A stretch of 47,461 bases of DNA, from IMG/VR virus record IMGVR_UViG_3300030098_004604, positions 11,114 to 58,574 of that record. One strand, written 5' to 3'. The position numbers were made by a program, and so were the translations under genes. Source of the DNA: a virus. The notes below the pieces were generated by a model. That model had not been told where the DNA came from, searched no databases, and saw only the letters and a program-made list of their open reading frames with translations. Below, in pieces: positions 2,686 to 17,863 of the stretch. Positions within the stretch are counted from its first letter, which is position 1. The number at the start of each line of letters is the position of its first letter.

Positions 2686-3051
2686 ATGAAAATCACAAAA
2701 TCACAACTTAAACAAATAATCAAGGAAGAACTTGAAGAAGGCTTTATGGATAAAGTAACTGGTATGCTAGGTTCCAAGAAAGAAGAACTTCCTATGAGCG
2801 ATAAGATTGCTGCTGTTCGTAGAATGTTTCTTGACGTTGGCGATGATCTCGACGAGAACGATAAACTCAATAATGCGATGGAAGCCTTGGACGCTCTCGA
2901 ACTCAAGGATGAAGTTGGCGAAGACGATTCTATTGGAAAGAAACTTTGGGACGCATCTTCTAATCTTTATCAAGCCTTCAATGATTTGAATGCACTTTTG
3001 AGGGAAGCCGAGATTATGGCCTTGCGTTCCGAGTACAAGGAAGAAACATAA
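2686..3051 (+). CDS. Leader-family small protein 1
   Basis: 121 residues. It begins with the shared amphipathic leader MKITKSQLKQIIKEE, then LEE-G, a possible (L/I)xE cleavage site for the phage prohead protease. The body is acidic and helical, without a recognised domain. The ribosome site AAAGGAA precedes the ATG. The stop overlaps the next start (TAATG), so the run of leader genes is probably translated from one mRNA. Packaging into the head is inferred from the leader only. Confidence 0.75.
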   Translation: MKITKSQLKQIIKEELEEGFMDKVTGMLGSKKEELPMSDKIAAVRRMFLDVGDDLDENDKLNNAMEALDALELKDEVGEDDSIGKKLWDASSNLYQAFNDLNALLREAEIMALRSEYKEET

Positions 3052-3410
3052 TGAAAATAACAAAATCACAACTTAAACAGATCATCAAGGAAGAGCTTGA
3101 AATTGTGTTAAGCGAGAATAGGCTAAACATGCAAGCGGTCGAAGATGCATTCACGATGGCGGTTGTTGAAAGACCTCCTAAACTGGGATTACCAGTTGCG
3201 GTCACAATCGAAGTGGTAAACAAAAAGCTGGCTGAAACACTTGGATGGGTTCCCGATGAAAATCAGGTATCAATATTCTTAAGACAAATATTGACGGATC
3301 AATCTGTACTAGAACGCCTTGGAATTGAAAAGGTGGATCTAGGATCAGAGATTACACAAACCACAGACGGCATGACTTATAGAAACAAAGAAGCCGCTGC
3401 GAGGGTATAA
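3051..3410 (+). CDS. Leader-family small protein 2
   Basis: 119 residues starting with the identical MKITKSQLKQIIKEE leader, followed by LSE-N at residues 20-23 as a possible protease site. The rest is a mixed alpha/beta sequence with no recognised family. It is nearly identical to its neighbours over the first 45 bases or so and unrelated after that, so the genes share a module and not a whole-protein ancestor. Confidence 0.75.
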   Translation: MKITKSQLKQIIKEELEIVLSENRLNMQAVEDAFTMAVVERPPKLGLPVAVTIEVVNKKLAETLGWVPDENQVSIFLRQILTDQSVLERLGIEKVDLGSEITQTTDGMTYRNKEAAARV

Positions 3411-3411
3411 A

Positions 3412-3789
3412 ATGAAAATCACAAAATCACAACTTAAACAGATTATTAAAGAAGAGCTATCAAACACTCTCAAGCTCAAAGAGAGCATTTCTGTGGAAGC
3501 GTGGGATAATCTTCGATCCGTGCTGGAAAGCAATCAGGAAATCTTTCGCTTGGCATATCAAGACTTAATCAATTCTCATCGTCCCGATCAAATCGACGCA
3601 GACACCGGAGAGCCTGTTGATTCCGACCCCCACACAGAAGCCATGAAACAGATTGTGAGCCTTATTGAACCTTATCTCACCGATGAAGAAGATCCTTGGG
3701 AGCGTGGAGCTTCTTGGGAAGATGACGAAAGCTGGCAAGAAGAAGAAAGAGACATTGAGGGCCGCTCCCCAAAAGGTACTGAACAATGA
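3412..3789 (+). CDS. Leader-family small protein 3
   Basis: 125 residues with the same leader (MKITKSQLKQIIKEE) followed by LKE-S near residue 24. The body is strongly acidic, with a Trp/Glu/Asp-rich C-terminal part (PWERGASWEDDESWQEEE). No known domain. The ATG overlaps the next gene's start region by four bases (3786-3789). Confidence 0.75.
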   Translation: MKITKSQLKQIIKEELSNTLKLKESISVEAWDNLRSVLESNQEIFRLAYQDLINSHRPDQIDADTGEPVDSDPHTEAMKQIVSLIEPYLTDEEDPWERGASWEDDESWQEEERDIEGRSPKGTEQ

Positions 3790-4106
3790 AAATTACAAAG
3801 AAACAGCTTAAACAGATCATTAAGGAAGAAATAGAGAGCACTTTAAAAGAGTACATCGGGCGACCTCTGCACAGGCCATACAGTGACGCGGAGCAAAAAG
3901 AGCGCGACAAACAGGGCGCGCTTCGTCAAGCCGCAGTGGAGGAGCTTAATAACAACGAAGAAGCCGGCGCGCTTTGGGATAAGCTTCGAGACCACACGTA
4001 TGGCTCCGAAGAAGAATACAACACGGATTTAAACGCATTTGCAGCGCTCTTCCCCAAGAACTTGCAAGCCATGGCGAAGAAACTTGTGGCCATGAACCAA
4101 CATTAA
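3786..4106 (+). CDS. Leader-family small protein 4
   Basis: 106 residues. Leader variant MKITKKQLKQIIKEE, then LKE-Y near residue 22 as a possible cleavage site. The remainder is charged and helical, with no recognised domain. Coupled by ATGA overlap to the gene before it. Confidence 0.75.
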   Translation: MKITKKQLKQIIKEEIESTLKEYIGRPLHRPYSDAEQKERDKQGALRQAAVEELNNNEEAGALWDKLRDHTYGSEEEYNTDLNAFAALFPKNLQAMAKKLVAMNQH

Positions 4107-4117
4107 GGAACAGCACA

Positions 4118-4645
4118 ATGAAGATCACCAGAACACAACTTAAAGCTTTAATTCGCGAACAGGTCGCAGCAGTCATTAACGAAACAGACTGGCGCGATGT
4201 TTCTGATCCGGACTATCACAAACCTCAAGGAGAAGCCGGCCCGTATGCTGACTTCAAGGAAGGTATGCCAGAAGTCGCCGGCCTCATGTCTCAGGCAGGA
4301 GCATACGCGATGCCCCCCGCCGCCATGCAGAGGTTAATGCGAGTCATTAAAGAATTTGCGCCGCACCTTCCCGACGAAGAGTTGCTGAATTTTGCTCAAC
4401 AGCTTATTGATGCTGGTGCCCTTGAAACTGCGCTATCGGCCCCCAAAGGCACATTGCAGGAGGACAAGGAGGGCAAAGGCAAGTGTCCTTCTGACGGCTG
4501 TGTTCAAGCTCGCGAAGGTCACTGGGTTGTAATCTCAAATAAGACTGGAGAGTGTTGGGGAAGAAGTAAGAAAGAAGGCGGCAAATGCACTCAGTATGAT
4601 TCTCGTAAGGATGCCGAGGCAGCCTTGGATGCATATCACGCATAA
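4118..4645 (+). CDS. Leader-family protein 5 with cysteine-containing C-terminal domain
   Basis: 175 residues. Diverged leader MKITRTQLKALIREQ, then INE-T near residue 22. The C-terminal 60 residues contain four cysteines (CPSDGC, ECW, KCT) around a short beta-type segment (GHWVVISNKTGECWG) and end in an SRKDAEAALDAYHA helix. This small fold recalls short domains at the ends of other phage proteins, but its function is unknown. The cysteines could bind zinc or form disulfides. Confidence 0.75.
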   Translation: MKITRTQLKALIREQVAAVINETDWRDVSDPDYHKPQGEAGPYADFKEGMPEVAGLMSQAGAYAMPPAAMQRLMRVIKEFAPHLPDEELLNFAQQLIDAGALETALSAPKGTLQEDKEGKGKCPSDGCVQAREGHWVVISNKTGECWGRSKKEGGKCTQYDSRKDAEAALDAYHA

Positions 4646-4656
4646 GGAACTAAACA

Positions 4657-5124
4657 ATGAACACAATATTTGAAAATTGGAGAATTGACCTTCTATATGA
4701 AGAGTGGCTAAAGAATAGGTCGCTCAATGAGGGGCAGTCTAGGTTTACATTGGCACAGGCGGCCACCATTCTTGGTCTCCACCCCAAACAAGCCAAAAAG
4801 AAGCCGCTCAATAAAGTCATGGCCATCAAAGCTAAAGAGAAATATCGGCAGTTGGCCTTGAAGTATCATCCGGATCGGAACCCGGACAATCCCGAAGCGG
4901 AAGCCAAGTTTAAAGAGGTGTCCGAAGCATACGCCGTTCTTACGGACGATGATATCACCCCGGCCCCCGCGAAGGCGTCCGACTCCAGCGGCCAAGCACA
5001 AGGCTCAACCACCCCTGAGCCAAACAACGACAAGAGTGAATTGTACAACACGATTATACAAGCGATGGGTAAGGCGTTTGCCCGACCACAAGCTGCGGTT
5101 GCAGAAGGAAAACAAAAGAAATGA
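4657..5124 (+). CDS. J-domain (DnaJ-like) protein
   Basis: 155 residues. Residues about 31-96 form a J domain: helix I ([11 protein letters not shown]), a lengthened basic loop, helix II ending [10 protein letters not shown] with the essential HPD (71-73), and helix III ([15 protein letters not shown]). J domains stimulate Hsp70 (DnaK) ATPase and recruit it to clients. No Gly/Phe or zinc region follows, only a low-complexity tail. The N-terminus differs from the MKITK leader but also ends in LNE-G (residues 23-26), resembling a prohead-protease site. It lies within the leader-gene cluster, so it could be a packaged or late assembly co-chaperone; this is inference. Confidence 0.85.
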
Positions 5125-5417
5125 ATTTATTGAGCAGAATTACAGGGTGGTTCTCTAAACCTACTCCCGTCACAGTTGTTGAAGAAGCGGAAGAGGTTGT
5201 TGTAGCTGATGAAGCTGGCGAGTCCGCTGGTGAAATCTTCACTAGACTTTGCCGCACCGCCGGCGTTAAGAACAGAGAGCTAATCAAGGTAAGCGCCGCC
5301 GAAGTTTTTGAGGCGTGGTATGTTGGACCGGTGTCGGATGCAGCTATCTTAGAGGCAATTTCGACATTCAAGAACGAACACCCCGGCATCAGCGCAAAAC
5401 TATCAGGGAAGATTTAA
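5121..5417 (+). CDS. Small unknown protein
   Basis: 98 residues, ATGA-coupled to the J-domain gene. The N-terminus ([12 protein letters not shown]) is amphipathic, followed by a Val/Glu/Ala-rich linker and a compact C-terminal helical part. No family recognised. Confidence 0.65.
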
Positions 5418-5418
5418 A

Positions 5419-6255
5419 ATGAATATTACTAAAGCTAGATTAATTGAAATCATCAAAGAAGAGGTGATTAAAGAGGCAGGCGGAGTCGCCGGCAACTTTG
5501 GCGGTGTTGCTACAGAGTTGGGCGCCCAGCGCGCCGACGGCAACGATTTGCCAGACCACGACCTCTACGGCCCACAGCAGACAGCCGAAGACAATTTTGT
5601 TGGCATCTTAAATGAAATTGGTCACATGCTCGATGCATGGGAGAAGAAGAAGTATCCCTCTGACGAGGCCCGATACATGAGCTATTTTGAAGATCTTCAA
5701 GGGCTGCTTGAGCAGTACGATCCTTGCGCCCATGTTGGGCAGAAGTGCGAGGACGTTCATCCAAACCAAAGCCACGAAGAGTGTGTGGAGGTTACGATTA
5801 ACAATGCGCTTTACGAGGCGGCTCAAAAAAGACTTAACGAAATGTACCCGCGCAGACGCGGACACTCAGCGCGATCTAATGTCGCGGGACCGGTCAACCC
5901 CAAGCGAAAATTAAAATACGGAGAGAAATGTCCGGCCGGCTACAAGTTAGGGCTTACGGATTATTGTGAGAAAATCGGCGCCCGCCCGAAGGACATCGAG
6001 AACGCAATTAACGACATTGAAAACCCTAACCGGTCCGGCGGCTATGGTGGACTTGAAGAGGAAAACAGCTGACCAGACAAAGAGGGCTCAGGTGAGCTTG
6101 GAGAAGTTTTAGGACCAGATGCGGAAGTTGGCGAATATATTGAAGATTTTCAAGATTCCGATGCTCCCCAGTTTAAGGGAAAGAGCAAGAAGAAAAAAGC
6201 CCAAATGGCCTACGCGGCCCACGCAGCAGCCAAAGAAAAAAGAGGTAAAAAATGA
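5419..6255 (+). CDS. Leader-family protein 6 interrupted by an in-frame UGA
   Basis: Codons 1-217 (5419-6069) encode a protein with leader variant MNITKARLIEIIKEE and IKE-A as possible cleavage site. A TGA follows at 6070-6072. The same frame stays open for 60 more codons to TGA at 6253-6255, with protein-like sequence ending in a basic tail (DAPQFKGKSKKKKAQMAY near 6157-6216). No start codon lies near the start of the extension, and its stop forms an ATGA overlap with the next gene. The extension is therefore probably part of this gene. Readthrough, a nonsense mutation or a base error are all possible. The protein would be 217 or 278 residues; function unknown. Confidence 0.7.
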
Positions 6256-13599: not shown

Positions 13600-13935
13600 A
13601 TGGAACTTATAACCTTTACGCTCATAGCGTACGGACTAACGCAAATTTTAGTCTATAGTGATATGCCGCTCATAAAACGCTTACGCCCATCCAAAGAGGC
13701 AGGTCGCGGCTATGGGAAGGTGTTCCACTGCCCAATGTGCATGGGTTTTCATGTTGGTTGGTTTTTAATGCTTCTTTCTCCGTTTACAGAACTATTTAAT
13801 TTTGACATTACTGTAACTAATTTCTTTCTTCTTGGGTGGCTCTCGTCTGGGACATCGTATGTTTTGAACATGGTCTTCGGAGATAAGGGAATACAGTATT
13901 CACAAACTATGGAGATGACCGGTCATGAAGATTGA
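13600..13935 (+). CDS. Small membrane protein, DUF1360-like
   Basis: 111 residues with about three hydrophobic segments and a central CPMCMGFHVGW motif, which resembles the CPxCxGFW core of DUF1360-type membrane proteins of unknown function. A ribosome site (TAGGAAG) precedes the ATG. It overlaps the next leader gene by 11 bases. A membrane protein inside the head cluster is unexplained; it might help membrane-associated prohead assembly, but that is a guess. Confidence 0.65.
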   Translation: MELITFTLIAYGLTQILVYSDMPLIKRLRPSKEAGRGYGKVFHCPMCMGFHVGWFLMLLSPFTELFNFDITVTNFFLLGWLSSGTSYVLNMVFGDKGIQYSQTMEMTGHED

Positions 13936-14245
13936 CAAAAAGAGACTTAGACAGATTATAAAAGAAGAAATTCAGAAGTTTGAAGAGCGCGTCGGTGGCG
14001 GTGACCGCTATTCCACCCAAGATGCCAATACTGCTCTGCAGCAACAGCGCGGCAGCCAAGGCGTTGGTGCCGCCGGCATTAATGATGCAGAGCGTGGAGT
14101 TATGATGGGACTTATGAATGCCCTTAAGGCCGCTGCCGCAAAAGGTAACATCACTAGTGGCGCCGCAGCGGCACAGATTGAAAGGCTAATGGGTATGCTA
14201 GAGAAAGTGGCGGGCGCCCCCGCAGAACAGGAGCAAGGACAATGA
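13925..14245 (+). CDS. Leader-family small head protein 7
   Basis: 106 residues with leader variant MKIDKKRLRQIIKEE. The body is Ala/Gly/Gln-rich and helical, like a small scaffold or prohead-core protein. It is located between portal and protease, as are T4 gp67/gp68, which makes a core role attractive. Of all leader proteins it has the least clear (L/I)xE site after the helix. Confidence 0.7.
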   Translation: MKIDKKRLRQIIKEEIQKFEERVGGGDRYSTQDANTALQQQRGSQGVGAAGINDAERGVMMGLMNALKAAAAKGNITSGAAAAQIERLMGMLEKVAGAPAEQEQGQ

Positions 14246-14331
14246 ACACCACATGGATTAAGAAGTGGATGCTTCAACCTGTCAGACTTTGTAAGTCTGG
14301 CTGTATAATCGCGCGGGTAACGCCCGCATAA
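14242..14331 (+). CDS. Possible 29-codon mini gene overlapping two hairpins
   Basis: ATG at 14242 overlaps the previous stop (ATGA), the arrangement used by real coupled genes here. It runs for 29 codons to TAA at 14329 and would give a basic peptide. The same DNA forms two hairpins, so the reading frame may be incidental. No homology recognised. Confidence 0.3.
   Translation: MNTTWIKKWMLQPVRLCKSGCIIARVTPA
14281..14327 (+). other. Two consecutive hairpins
   Basis: CAGACTT-TGT-AAGTCTG (14283-14299), extendable by two pairs, is followed by GCGGG-TAACG-CCCGC (14313-14327). No U-run follows, so they are not typical terminators. They lie between two leader genes in the head operon and might affect mRNA processing or translation of the next gene. 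Confidence 0.5.
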
Positions 14332-14349
14332 GAACAAGGAACAAAAGAG

Positions 14350-14676
14350 ATGAAGATTAACAAATCACTATTGCAAAAGATCATACAAGAAGAGCTTGAG
14401 GCAGTCCTTGATGAATTTCTGGGACTTCCCAAGTTGAAGGGTCTCACTAAGCGTGTGCAGGGCACCACCCTCGCAAACAAAACTGCAGAAGAAGAATGCG
14501 AAGCATCGCGTGATTTTGCCATGCGCAAAAAGAAAGTTACTTACCCCGAGACCGGCACTGTTGAAGAGTTTGCTAATCAGCGCGCCGCTAAGGAGTGGCT
14601 GAAAAAATGCAAACCAGACGCCCACCGAAAAATGACACGCTCTCGGACCCATGACCCCGCCGATACGGATGAATAA
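14350..14676 (+). CDS. Leader-family small head protein 8
   Basis: 108 residues. Leader variant MKINKSLLQKIIQEE, then LDE-F near residue 21 as a possible protease site. The remainder is basic (multiple Lys/Arg) with two cysteines and no recognised fold. A basic body would suit a DNA-contacting internal protein; this is inference. It directly precedes the protease gene. Confidence 0.7.
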   Translation: MKINKSLLQKIIQEELEAVLDEFLGLPKLKGLTKRVQGTTLANKTAEEECEASRDFAMRKKKVTYPETGTVEEFANQRAAKEWLKKCKPDAHRKMTRSRTHDPADTDE

Positions 14677-14692
14677 AACAGAGGATTAACAA

Positions 14693-15298
14693 ATGAGCAA
14701 GAAAGTACTAAGAGAATATTACGCACTGTGTGAGGGAGGAGTTTGCCAAGACCTTCTTACCGAACAAGAGAAGCAGTTCATCGCCGACGGAGGAATGATT
14801 CTGTCTGGTATTATGCAGAAGTCCGACACCGTTAACGGCAATGGCCGCGTGTATCCTCACAACGTTTTAATGAAAGAGATGAAGAACTACCAAAAGCTTG
14901 TCAAAGAATGCCGAGCACTTGGAGAACTAGACCATCCAGAAGATTCTGTCATTAATCTTAAGAACGCATCCCACATGATTACAGAAGTGTGGTGGGACGG
15001 CAATGCAGTGATGGGAAAAGCTAAAGTGCTTGATACCCCATCTGGTAAAATTCTACGCTCTCTGGTGGACTCTGGCGTTACGCTAGGTATATCTTCGAGA
15101 GGTATGGGGTCTGTTACTGAGTCTAATGGGCAGACAACCGTAGAAGATGACTTCCAACTGATTTGTTTTGACTTTGTTTCGGAGCCATCTACTCCGGGCG
15201 CCTTCATGATGAAAGAGGCCAAGGACCACACTAACCAAGTGTTCACCAAAGCTGATCGCATCAATCGCCTCTTAAACGAGGTGCTTGAGGATGAGTAA
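14693..15298 (+). CDS. 21: Prohead core protease (T4 gp21-like)
   Basis: 201 residues, a serine protease of the T4 gp21 prohead-protease family. Seen: ELDHP with the probable catalytic His81, GISSRG with the probable nucleophile Ser134/135, and CFDFVSEPSTPG, a conserved block around a possible third residue (Asp160). The enzyme works in the prohead and cleaves scaffold, core and capsid N-termini after (L/I)xE in T4. The DNA around it encodes many small proteins with such sites. The stop overlaps the next start. Confidence 0.93.
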   Translation: MSKKVLREYYALCEGGVCQDLLTEQEKQFIADGGMILSGIMQKSDTVNGNGRVYPHNVLMKEMKNYQKLVKECRALGELDHPEDSVINLKNASHMITEVWWDGNAVMGKAKVLDTPSGKILRSLVDSGVTLGISSRGMGSVTESNGQTTVEDDFQLICFDFVSEPSTPGAFMMKEAKDHTNQVFTKADRINRLLNEVLEDE

Positions 15299-17429
15299 CT
15301 GGTCGAGCTATAAAGGGCAAAAGCTTTTAACCGAAGGGTGGCGTTCCTACCTTAAGGGTGATTTGTATTCCGGCGAGAAAGTTGAAGAGCTTTTTGGCAT
15401 GGGCAAGAAGAAGCCTCAAGTTCGAGGCTCAGTTTCCTTAAACATGCTGTCAGAGGCAACTGGTTGGGCATCCGAAGTCATTCAAGATGTGAGGAAAGGG
15501 CCCGATCAGCAGCCCGAAGGAGGCAGAGACTGGCACGAAAGGAATGCACAACTAGCCCAGAATCCACAATTGATGGAATTGGCCCAAAATACCGATGAAG
15601 TGGCAATGATCACCGAGTTCGAAAATATGGTCACTGGCCAGCAATTTGAATTGATTAGTGAGCAATCTCCGTTCGAGCGCGACGATTATCGCGGCGGAAC
15701 AGCCCAAACAGGACATGTCCGCGATCCAGAAGCAGAAGAAGGCGAAGACCTTCCATTAACATTCGAGCCCGATGGTTACGAGAACATTACCAACTTTATC
15801 GAGATTATCAAAGATAGTCCCGAACACGTAGAGAAGTTTGTTACAGAACTTAAGCGCGCCGGCTTCTCCAATTGCGTAGACACGCTTGGTTGTAAGAAGC
15901 CTGCTGTTGAGCCCGGTGCCACGGGACTTGTTCGCAAATTCAGAGGCCCCGGCGGCGTCAATGTCTCTGGTGTCGGCGGCGAAGATGGAGGGTTAAAAGG
16001 TGGCGCTAAGATTGACAAGAAGAAAGAGCCTGAAAAAGTCAAAACTCAGCAAGGCCAAGCTGCTATCTTGGTACAACGCGACGGCGCCGTCGTTGCCACC
16101 GATACAGATGGTGATGGAAAGATTGATGACGTTATACCCATGGTTGAAAGGGTGCTGGAGCTTTTACGCCAACTTTGTGCATACGTGGTGTTTCCCGAAG
16201 AGCAACGCGGCGAGGCAATGGAACAGCTTGAACGTGCTATCCGTCCAGCACTCGAAGATGCCGGCACAGATGAGCTTGGACAACTGATTAAAGAACTGGA
16301 AGAAGAGATTGCACAACAGGGCGAGTGTGTGGTGCCGGCTCAAATTGGTGGCGACCCTTCCGCAGATCAGGTTGGCGGCCCCGGCGACGTGAAGCAGCTT
16401 CAGGGCCCTGATGAGATTCTCATTGACTATCAAGATTCGTTGAATCGTGCTATGGAAATGGCTCGCACTGGCGGCATAGAAGACTTTGAGAAAGATGACT
16501 TCGATCTGATTTATATGGCGATGGCCGACTGTAACGATGAAAGTTATGTTAAATTCGGAGAACCGTCAGAATCATCCCCAATGGCCCGTGGAAAGTGGGT
16601 TAACGAGGCAGTAGATTACGATGGCAAGAAATGCAAGGATTTAAGAGAACTCGGGGCATCCCCGCAGTTTATCCACCTTGTTGCAAAAGCAATATCGGAT
16701 GTTACTGATGGGATTGAGTATAAAGAGTTCTTCCTTAATCTTCCCGGCGCTGAGATCGATGATGACGGAGGAGGCAAAGGCGAAGACGATGATCAAGGAA
16801 AGAAGAAAGGCGAAGACGATGATCAAGGCGGTGGCGAAGACGATGGTCAAGGCGGTGGTGAGGACGAAACAAAGCAGTCGAAATGCTCGCTGCCACAAAA
16901 TTGGAAACCCGAAGGAGAGAAGGCCACCGACGCATGGGAGGAGCTTCAGGCGGCATACAAATTGGTGGGTGGTGAAAACTTTGAAGCTGATTGGCGAGAT
17001 TTTGCTGAACAGCTTTGCGATGTCAAGAAGAAACTTGGCTCAGCCCAAGCCGAGGTTCAAGAGAACAAGGTGGACGCCAGAACCATCGCCGCTATACTGG
17101 TCGGCACCAGCAAAAAGAAGGCTCCCAAGCGCAAGGAGATGGAGAAAGCCTTCAAAGCCATCTTTAACAACGAGGGGACTGGTGGCTCTACGATCATGAA
17201 GGCGCTGCGCAAGATGACAATCAATCGCACGGCGCCGAGCGGTACCGACATAGCAAAACTGATCCACCAGACATGGAGCGCCGTCCGCATGGGCACTCCC
17301 GCCAAAGAATCCCCCGATCAGGCTGAACAGCCGGAAGAACCCCCAGTTCAACAAGCCGCAGAAAGTTTACTTAGAGAATCAACCATCGATAGATGGCAGC
17401 AACTTGCTGGAATTAAAAAGAGAGTATAA
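15291..17429 (+). CDS. Large acidic head-associated protein with EF-hand-like loop
   Basis: 712 residues from ATG 15291 (ACGAGG nine bases upstream; start overlaps the protease stop). Very acidic. Seen: an early KLLTE-GW site, an EF-hand/dockerin-like loop DTDGDGKIDD (271-280), and an acidic GEDDDQG repeat block (about 497-526). The C-terminus STIDRWQQLAGIK shares the RxxxLAGIK ending of the scaffold protein at 23598. These features and the place behind the protease suggest a prohead core or internal protein. Family not recognised. The loop lacks the usual acidic residue at position 12, so calcium binding is uncertain. Confidence 0.7.
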   Translation: MSNWSSYKGQKLLTEGWRSYLKGDLYSGEKVEELFGMGKKKPQVRGSVSLNMLSEATGWASEVIQDVRKGPDQQPEGGRDWHERNAQLAQNPQLMELAQNTDEVAMITEFENMVTGQQFELISEQSPFERDDYRGGTAQTGHVRDPEAEEGEDLPLTFEPDGYENITNFIEIIKDSPEHVEKFVTELKRAGFSNCVDTLGCKKPAVEPGATGLVRKFRGPGGVNVSGVGGEDGGLKGGAKIDKKKEPEKVKTQQGQAAILVQRDGAVVATDTDGDGKIDDVIPMVERVLELLRQLCAYVVFPEEQRGEAMEQLERAIRPALEDAGTDELGQLIKELEEEIAQQGECVVPAQIGGDPSADQVGGPGDVKQLQGPDEILIDYQDSLNRAMEMARTGGIEDFEKDDFDLIYMAMADCNDESYVKFGEPSESSPMARGKWVNEAVDYDGKKCKDLRELGASPQFIHLVAKAISDVTDGIEYKEFFLNLPGAEIDDDGGGKGEDDDQGKKKGEDDDQGGGEDDGQGGGEDETKQSKCSLPQNWKPEGEKATDAWEELQAAYKLVGGENFEADWRDFAEQLCDVKKKLGSAQAEVQENKVDARTIAAILVGTSKKKAPKRKEMEKAFKAIFNNEGTGGSTIMKALRKMTINRTAPSGTDIAKLIHQTWSAVRMGTPAKESPDQAEQPEEPPVQQAAESLLRESTIDRWQQLAGIKKRV

Positions 17430-17863
17430 TGAAAAAATCAGATTTAAAAGAATTAATTAAACCCATAGTGAAAGAGTGTATCCACGAGACCCTGATTGAA
17501 GAGGGTCTTCTGTCTAATATCGTCGCAGAGGTTGCAAAGGGGATGCAAGGCAACTTAGTTGTCGAGACCACCCAGAGTACAAAAAACCCTGACGAAGCCC
17601 TATTTAATGAGCGCAAACAAATGAAGCGCAAGACTGAAGATACCCAAAAGAAACTTAAAGAGCATCGGAAGAAACTAATGGACTCTATAGGCTCTGACGC
17701 ATACGGCGGAGTAAACTTGTTCGAAGGCACTGAGCCTATGACAAACTATGACGTGGCCGATCAGAAGCCCGGTACCGTAGACTTGGGAGATCCGAGAGAC
17801 GCCGGCGTTGACATCAGCAGCTTGATGGGTGGCGCATCACAAATCTGGAAGGCAATGAAATGA
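17429..17863 (+). CDS. Leader-related head-cluster protein 9
   Basis: 144 residues. The N-terminus (KKSDLKELIKPIVKECIHE) is a diverged version of the amphipathic leader and is followed by LIEE-GLL, again an (L/I)xE type site. The middle is a Lys/Glu coiled coil, and the C-terminus (DAGVDISSLMGGASQIWKAM) is hydrophobic and compact. Function unknown. It ends in an ATGA overlap with the bS21 homologue. Confidence 0.7.
   Translation: MKKSDLKELIKPIVKECIHETLIEEGLLSNIVAEVAKGMQGNLVVETTQSTKNPDEALFNERKQMKRKTEDTQKKLKEHRKKLMDSIGSDAYGGVNLFEGTEPMTNYDVADQKPGTVDLGDPRDAGVDISSLMGGASQIWKAMK

Follow-up and report, generated by a model that had tools for sequence, protein, structure and literature searches.

The in-frame UGA at 6070-6072 of the window (the whole stretch of 47,461 nt analysed here, from the IMG/VR virus record IMGVR_UViG_3300030098_004604) very probably undergoes programmed recoding, a reading drawn from sequence comparison, because the UGA and the hairpin that follows it are conserved together, the stem covaries, coding modules continue in frame and the sequence after the UGA is under purifying selection. 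In the proposed mechanism a mobile cassette, consisting of the UGA, a spacer of about 11 nt and a short hairpin with a G-rich loop, and encoding -U/X-P-D-K-E-x-S-G-, would have entered a leader-bearing phage protein between its exchangeable coding modules. Termination at the UGA would give a short form of 217 aa, and decoding of the UGA would add the C-terminal module, up to a stop that overlaps the start of a holin-like gene, to give a long form of 278 aa. Ribosomes that read through would also be delivered to the holin start. The cassette turned up nowhere but directly in front of the holin-like gene, and such ribosomes possibly affect holin translation too. In bacteria, where it makes selenoproteins, and in RNA viruses, UGA recoding that involves a conserved hairpin is a familiar phenomenon. 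A search of open-licence papers returned no report of such a cassette in tailed DNA phages, nor of selenocysteine in a phage; recoding itself is known, and the mobile SECIS-like cassette in tailed phages is new. The features are as follows (window coordinates, strand).

5419..6069, plus strand: leader-bearing modular protein, short form of 217 aa with the MNITKARLIEIIKEEV leader (ORF; six IMG/VR homologues)
6070..6072, plus strand: UGA codon, very probably recoded (TGA in 24/24 cassette-bearing holin loci)
6070..6097, plus strand: 28-nt cassette (identical in the window, L099, L103, L106 and L109)
6073..6252, plus strand: C-terminal extension, proposed to be translated after recoding (linker, module and basic end)
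6084..6099, plus strand: SECIS-like hairpin (folding, compensatory changes and positions matching fdhF)
6253..6255, plus strand: stop of the predicted long form, overlapping the holin-like start codon
6252..6452, plus strand: holin-like gene, the survey anchor (weak PHROG holin match; 467 IMG/VR relatives)

The gene runs for 217 codons on the plus strand at 5419-6072 and closes with the TGA at 6070-6072, the next codon being CCA. The original prediction had described an interrupted gene with a 60-codon continuation that lacks an early start, and an ATGA-type overlap with the next gene. When the ORF was re-read all of the coordinates were confirmed: 60 codons stay open in frame (6073-6252), the first ATG, GTG or TTG among them is Met45 of the extension, and the TGA at 6253-6255 overlaps the ATG at 6252 of the holin-like gene. 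A separate start for the extension was considered and none was found. The chance of 60 open codons is about 3%, and openness alone is weak evidence. The coding score of the extension (0.33) is the best among post-stop regions of more than 15 codons in the record (gene mean 0.13), and the remaining two forward frames give -0.11 and -0.41. It is made up of a PDKEGSGELGE linker, the DAPQFKGKS module and a KEKRGKK end. The full module, DxxxSDAPQFKGKSKKKxxxMAxAA (DAPQFKGKSKKK..MA.AA), has 183 occurrences in IMG/VR and is also part of cyanophage proteins; of the 81 copies found by motif, 80 belong to ORFs that have a start codon upstream in the same frame, the sole exception being that in the window. 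The 217-aa part had no match in Pfam or PHROGs. A genome-wide code in which UGA is read as Trp was rejected, as many other genes end in TGA and no other gene is interrupted by UGA; no suppressor tRNA was found in the phage.

The DAPQFKGKS module seen at 6073-6252 is widespread in marine phages (L094, L095), and in Synechococcus phage Sf-CH8 it is carried by a protein encoded between the genes for the small and large terminase subunits.

The holin-like gene was used as the anchor of a survey in which 80 loci were sampled from its 467 IMG/VR relatives. The cassette, carried by many related uncultured marine phages and defined as UGA, P-D/E-K and, at a constant distance, a hairpin of 4-6 bp with G-G/U in its loop, was located directly before the holin in 24 of the 80, and its stop codon was TGA in every one of these, although TAA and TAG were also allowed in the search. 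With a pattern scan of IMG/VR added, there are 25 distinct elements overall, the window counted. Two pattern matches that do not adjoin a holin (L191 and L199) and the TGB match L205 look like chance matches in other sequence. The loci that share the 28 nt of the window differ from one another in upstream sequence or in downstream module; L109, for instance, reads ...NEEET-UGA-PDKEGSGELEEKENNPWAICTASVG... and has the 28 nt from the UGA on, yet other upstream sequence and another tail. Seven module types are found in the UGA frame (APQFKGKS, NPWAIC, KIKKVKGGYK, RRFRAKGQ, RPVGNPEF, QAVAAAIN and TTFKGKSKC), and at least five of them have uninterrupted copies elsewhere in ORFs with a start. Of the 24 loci, 17 have the end of the frame at a TGA that overlaps the holin ATG, and four more have it 2-13 nt before the ATG. 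Pfam and PHROGs were mostly silent on the modules, with one post-UGA module matching phrog_3684, of unknown function. In L112 the UGA has been lost and the hairpin sequence retained, and in L157 sense codons replace the UGA and the tail peptide is retained.

The locus upstream of the holin in L096-L175 is a hot spot of C-terminal module shuffling, in which NPWAIC, SEKQRRWACAQKDK, KIKKVKGGYK, RRFRAKGQ, RPVGNPEF and GWPSxPPxHP recur.

Nearly every element has a hairpin of 4-6 bp beginning 11-13 nt after the UGA with a G-containing loop, that of L151 being weaker and bulged. In the window the spacer is 11 nt, the 5' arm lies at 6084-6089, the AGGU loop at 6090-6093 and the 3' arm at 6094-6099. 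The loop G at column 22 is invariant in the 21 aligned elements. Pairing is 100% in classes A and A', with three pairs per class showing two-sided changes, and this stem covariation is supportive, not overwhelming, given the small alignments; the class B hairpins (CCGGUCGG) had no compensatory changes. Folded by itself, a 66-nt sequence of the window is not unusual (z +0.9), and a search of Rfam gave no match. The SECIS of E. coli fdhF, used as a control, has C20-A21-G22-G23-U24 at the same columns as the element in the window, and the two are alike in having AGGU at loop columns 21-24 and the first pair at column 15 after the UGA; fdnG and fdoG have CAAGU at those columns. The 11-nt distance and a stem-loop at 15-31 have been described (PMC8659212). 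The fixed hairpin geometry occurs at 0.5-2% of window TGAs. The cassette also fits a looser SECIS rule (PMC13188914; hairpin 16-37 nt after the UGA, loop of 3-9 nt, stem of 4-16 bp and a G in the first two loop positions), but so do 54% of all window TGAs, and such loose published rules therefore carry little weight. About half of the elements lie at or below an energy cut-off of -7.5 kcal/mol, and the fold of the element in the window ranges from -6.8 (36 nt) to -8.7 kcal/mol (45 nt), so that its side of the cut-off depends on the length folded. Like the fdhF SECIS, the cassette lies inside a coding region, and its UGA is separated by 11 nt from a short hairpin that has AGGU in the same positions. 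Unlike it, the cassette has no bulged U, no redox active-site context and no Cys homologues that could be found, and it moves between unrelated proteins, in a phage.

Comparison of phages that retain the UGA indicates that the frame after it is under purifying selection. L185 and L195 have in common the UGA and a 53-codon tail, the sequences before the UGA being unrelated, and across these 53 codons there are 22 synonymous and four non-synonymous differences, an excess that is reversed in the other two frames, so the tail would be translated and selected. The short tails that reach the holin are 45, 48 or 51 nt long, and their length changes are therefore multiples of three. Within one clade of short tails pS is 0.30 and pN 0.07 in frame, with a ratio of about 1 or less in the other frames.

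A private nonsense mutation was at first favoured from homologue searches and was dropped once the holin-anchored survey showed the same UGA elsewhere. Six homologues of the 217-aa part in IMG/VR (L001, L002, L003, L088, L091 and L092) are uninterrupted and have no UGA; their C-terminal modules are other ones, and each of them stops immediately ahead of the same holin-like gene. L005 and L018 have a different protein there, which ends before the holin with the window's own module, again uninterrupted. Both observations would suit a mutation private to this phage or a base error in the contig. However, the same UGA, with the 28 nt that begin with it, is seen again in independent contigs whose upstream sequence and modules differ, and the chance that the UGA is such a mutation or error is negligible; for the cassette as a whole this explanation is already refuted. 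The recent nonsense mutation and the base error offered in the original prediction are incompatible with the recurrence of UGA and hairpin and with the selection after the UGA, while its preferred option, programmed UGA readthrough, is supported by the same UGA and hairpin in 24 of 80 loci and by that selection. It had also proposed aligning homologues to see whether the UGA is conserved or replaced by a sense codon, and both situations occur, with TGA in all 24 cassette loci, no UGA in the first-part homologues and sense codons in L157. The hairpin, the cassette and the possibility of selenocysteine were missed by it. Because the six first-part homologues have no UGA, the cassette is optional.

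When the junction in the window is aligned with L001, the TGA falls opposite a TGG (10/15 nt). A TGG-to-TGA change was considered here and is weak, being made unlikely by the cassette; the alignment is probably coincidental, as L001 has a different module at that place and no cassette after its TGG. The DNA of the segment at 5917-6060 (YGEKCPAGYKLGLTDYCEKIG...GGLEE) matches that of L001 almost completely (135/144 nt), unlike the core of the gene, where silent sites are saturated, and it reads as a recent module exchange.

The UGA might instead simply terminate translation while the hairpin, as a non-coding element, controls the holin gene, which is improbable. The cassette does stand only before the holin-like gene, with the UGA merely 46-53 nt from the holin ATG in most cassette loci, and in L128, L154 and L155 the extension closes at another stop soon after the UGA, after 7-10 codons. 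A control element would, however, leave unexplained why coding modules of 38-60 codons continue in the UGA frame, why synonymous differences are in excess by 22:4 and why the distances from UGA to holin ATG extend over 46-187 nt.

Programmed recoding itself contains two sub-readings, selenocysteine insertion and reading by a near-cognate tRNA, and the two candidate residues are almost equally likely, selenocysteine having a small edge over tryptophan. True selenocysteine insertion, in which the hairpin would be a bacterial SECIS bound by the SelB of the host and the long form a phage selenoprotein, has nearly an even chance. It would account for a stop that is only ever UGA (24/24), for the invariant G at column 22 in 21 aligned elements, for CAGGU at columns 20-24 as in fdhF, for a loop that fits the N(0-1)G[G/U] rule (PMC13188914) and for a fixed geometry seen at so few of the window TGAs; the lone sense variant, L157 (EEDCDDTDKEESG), has a Cys beside the site, in an alignment made ambiguous by indels. 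Cys homologues exist for almost all selenoproteins (PMC12013277), but no Cys homologue with the cassette was found, and scanning by pattern for versions that have Cys or Trp turned up a chance match only. The context of the cassette also has no redox motif, the hairpin has no U17-type bulge and about half of the elements have a predicted energy higher than -7.5 kcal/mol. No Sec machinery was seen in the phage records (neither SelB nor tRNA-Sec over the cut-off in 20 records, many of them fragments). A search for the host through a similar MAG yielded a single distant relative of the holin, and the Acidiferrobacteraceae MAG that carries it has neither SelB nor the cassette.

Ordinary readthrough by a near-cognate tRNA, mostly that for Trp, aided by the UGA context and the hairpin as in Q-beta, is a serious candidate whose chance is put somewhat below even. 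Of the stop codons of E. coli, UGA leaks the most, with Trp as the usual residue (PMC11126739), and phage Q-beta produces A1 by UGA readthrough (PMC8067240). The missing Cys homologues speak for this reading, the identity of the inserted residue need not matter, and the window TGA stands opposite the TGG of L001, a match that, as noted, is probably coincidental. Near-cognate reading leaves unexplained the exact fdhF-like spacing and loop and the invariant loop G. As with the coat and A1 proteins of Q-beta, a phage UGA would yield a short and a C-terminally extended protein, here by prediction; unlike Q-beta, this is a dsDNA T4-like phage, with a conserved hairpin, exchangeable C-terminal modules and a stop that overlaps a lysis gene.

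Recoding in the cell, its efficiency, the inserted residue, packaging and any effect on holin synthesis are matters that we infer. Tentatively, and with somewhat less than an even chance, a family of uncultured T4-like phages has a mobile SECIS cassette by which leader proteins that are unrelated become selenoproteins, and the long form, possibly along with translation of the holin, depends on the selenocysteine supply of the host. Recoding would be put to a new use by a cassette that moves between genes and allows one protein to receive different tails. Should selenocysteine be the inserted residue, the long forms would count as phage selenoproteins, and how well the host is supplied with selenium could influence the expression of phage genes near lysis. 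On the recoding reading, gene callers truncate the cassette-bearing proteins.

A leader of one kind, the MKITKSQLKQIIKEEL type, opens nine window genes, which may form a family of capsid-targeted proteins by analogy with T4, whose internal proteins have N-terminal capsid-targeting sequences that are removed by gp21 (PMC5694885). The phage encodes a gp21-like head maturation protease (phrog_207, E=4e-56) as well as T4-like portal and terminase genes. The leader proteins resemble the T4 internal proteins in their short shared N-terminal leader, an I-x-E-type site and the gp21-like protease; packaging and cleavage are predicted from that analogy, and any relation between the leader sequences is putative. 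They may be packaged or ejected, with exchangeable modules. The label 'head protein' for the gene at 5419-6255 is likewise an inference, from the leader in nine genes and the gp21-like protease. The leader genes start at 2686, 3051, 3412, 3786, 4118, 5419, 13925, 14350 and 17429, and leader-gene stretches lie at 2686-5417 and 13925-17863. At 4657-5124 a small protein with a J-domain-like stretch is encoded, which is possibly a DnaJ-type co-chaperone.
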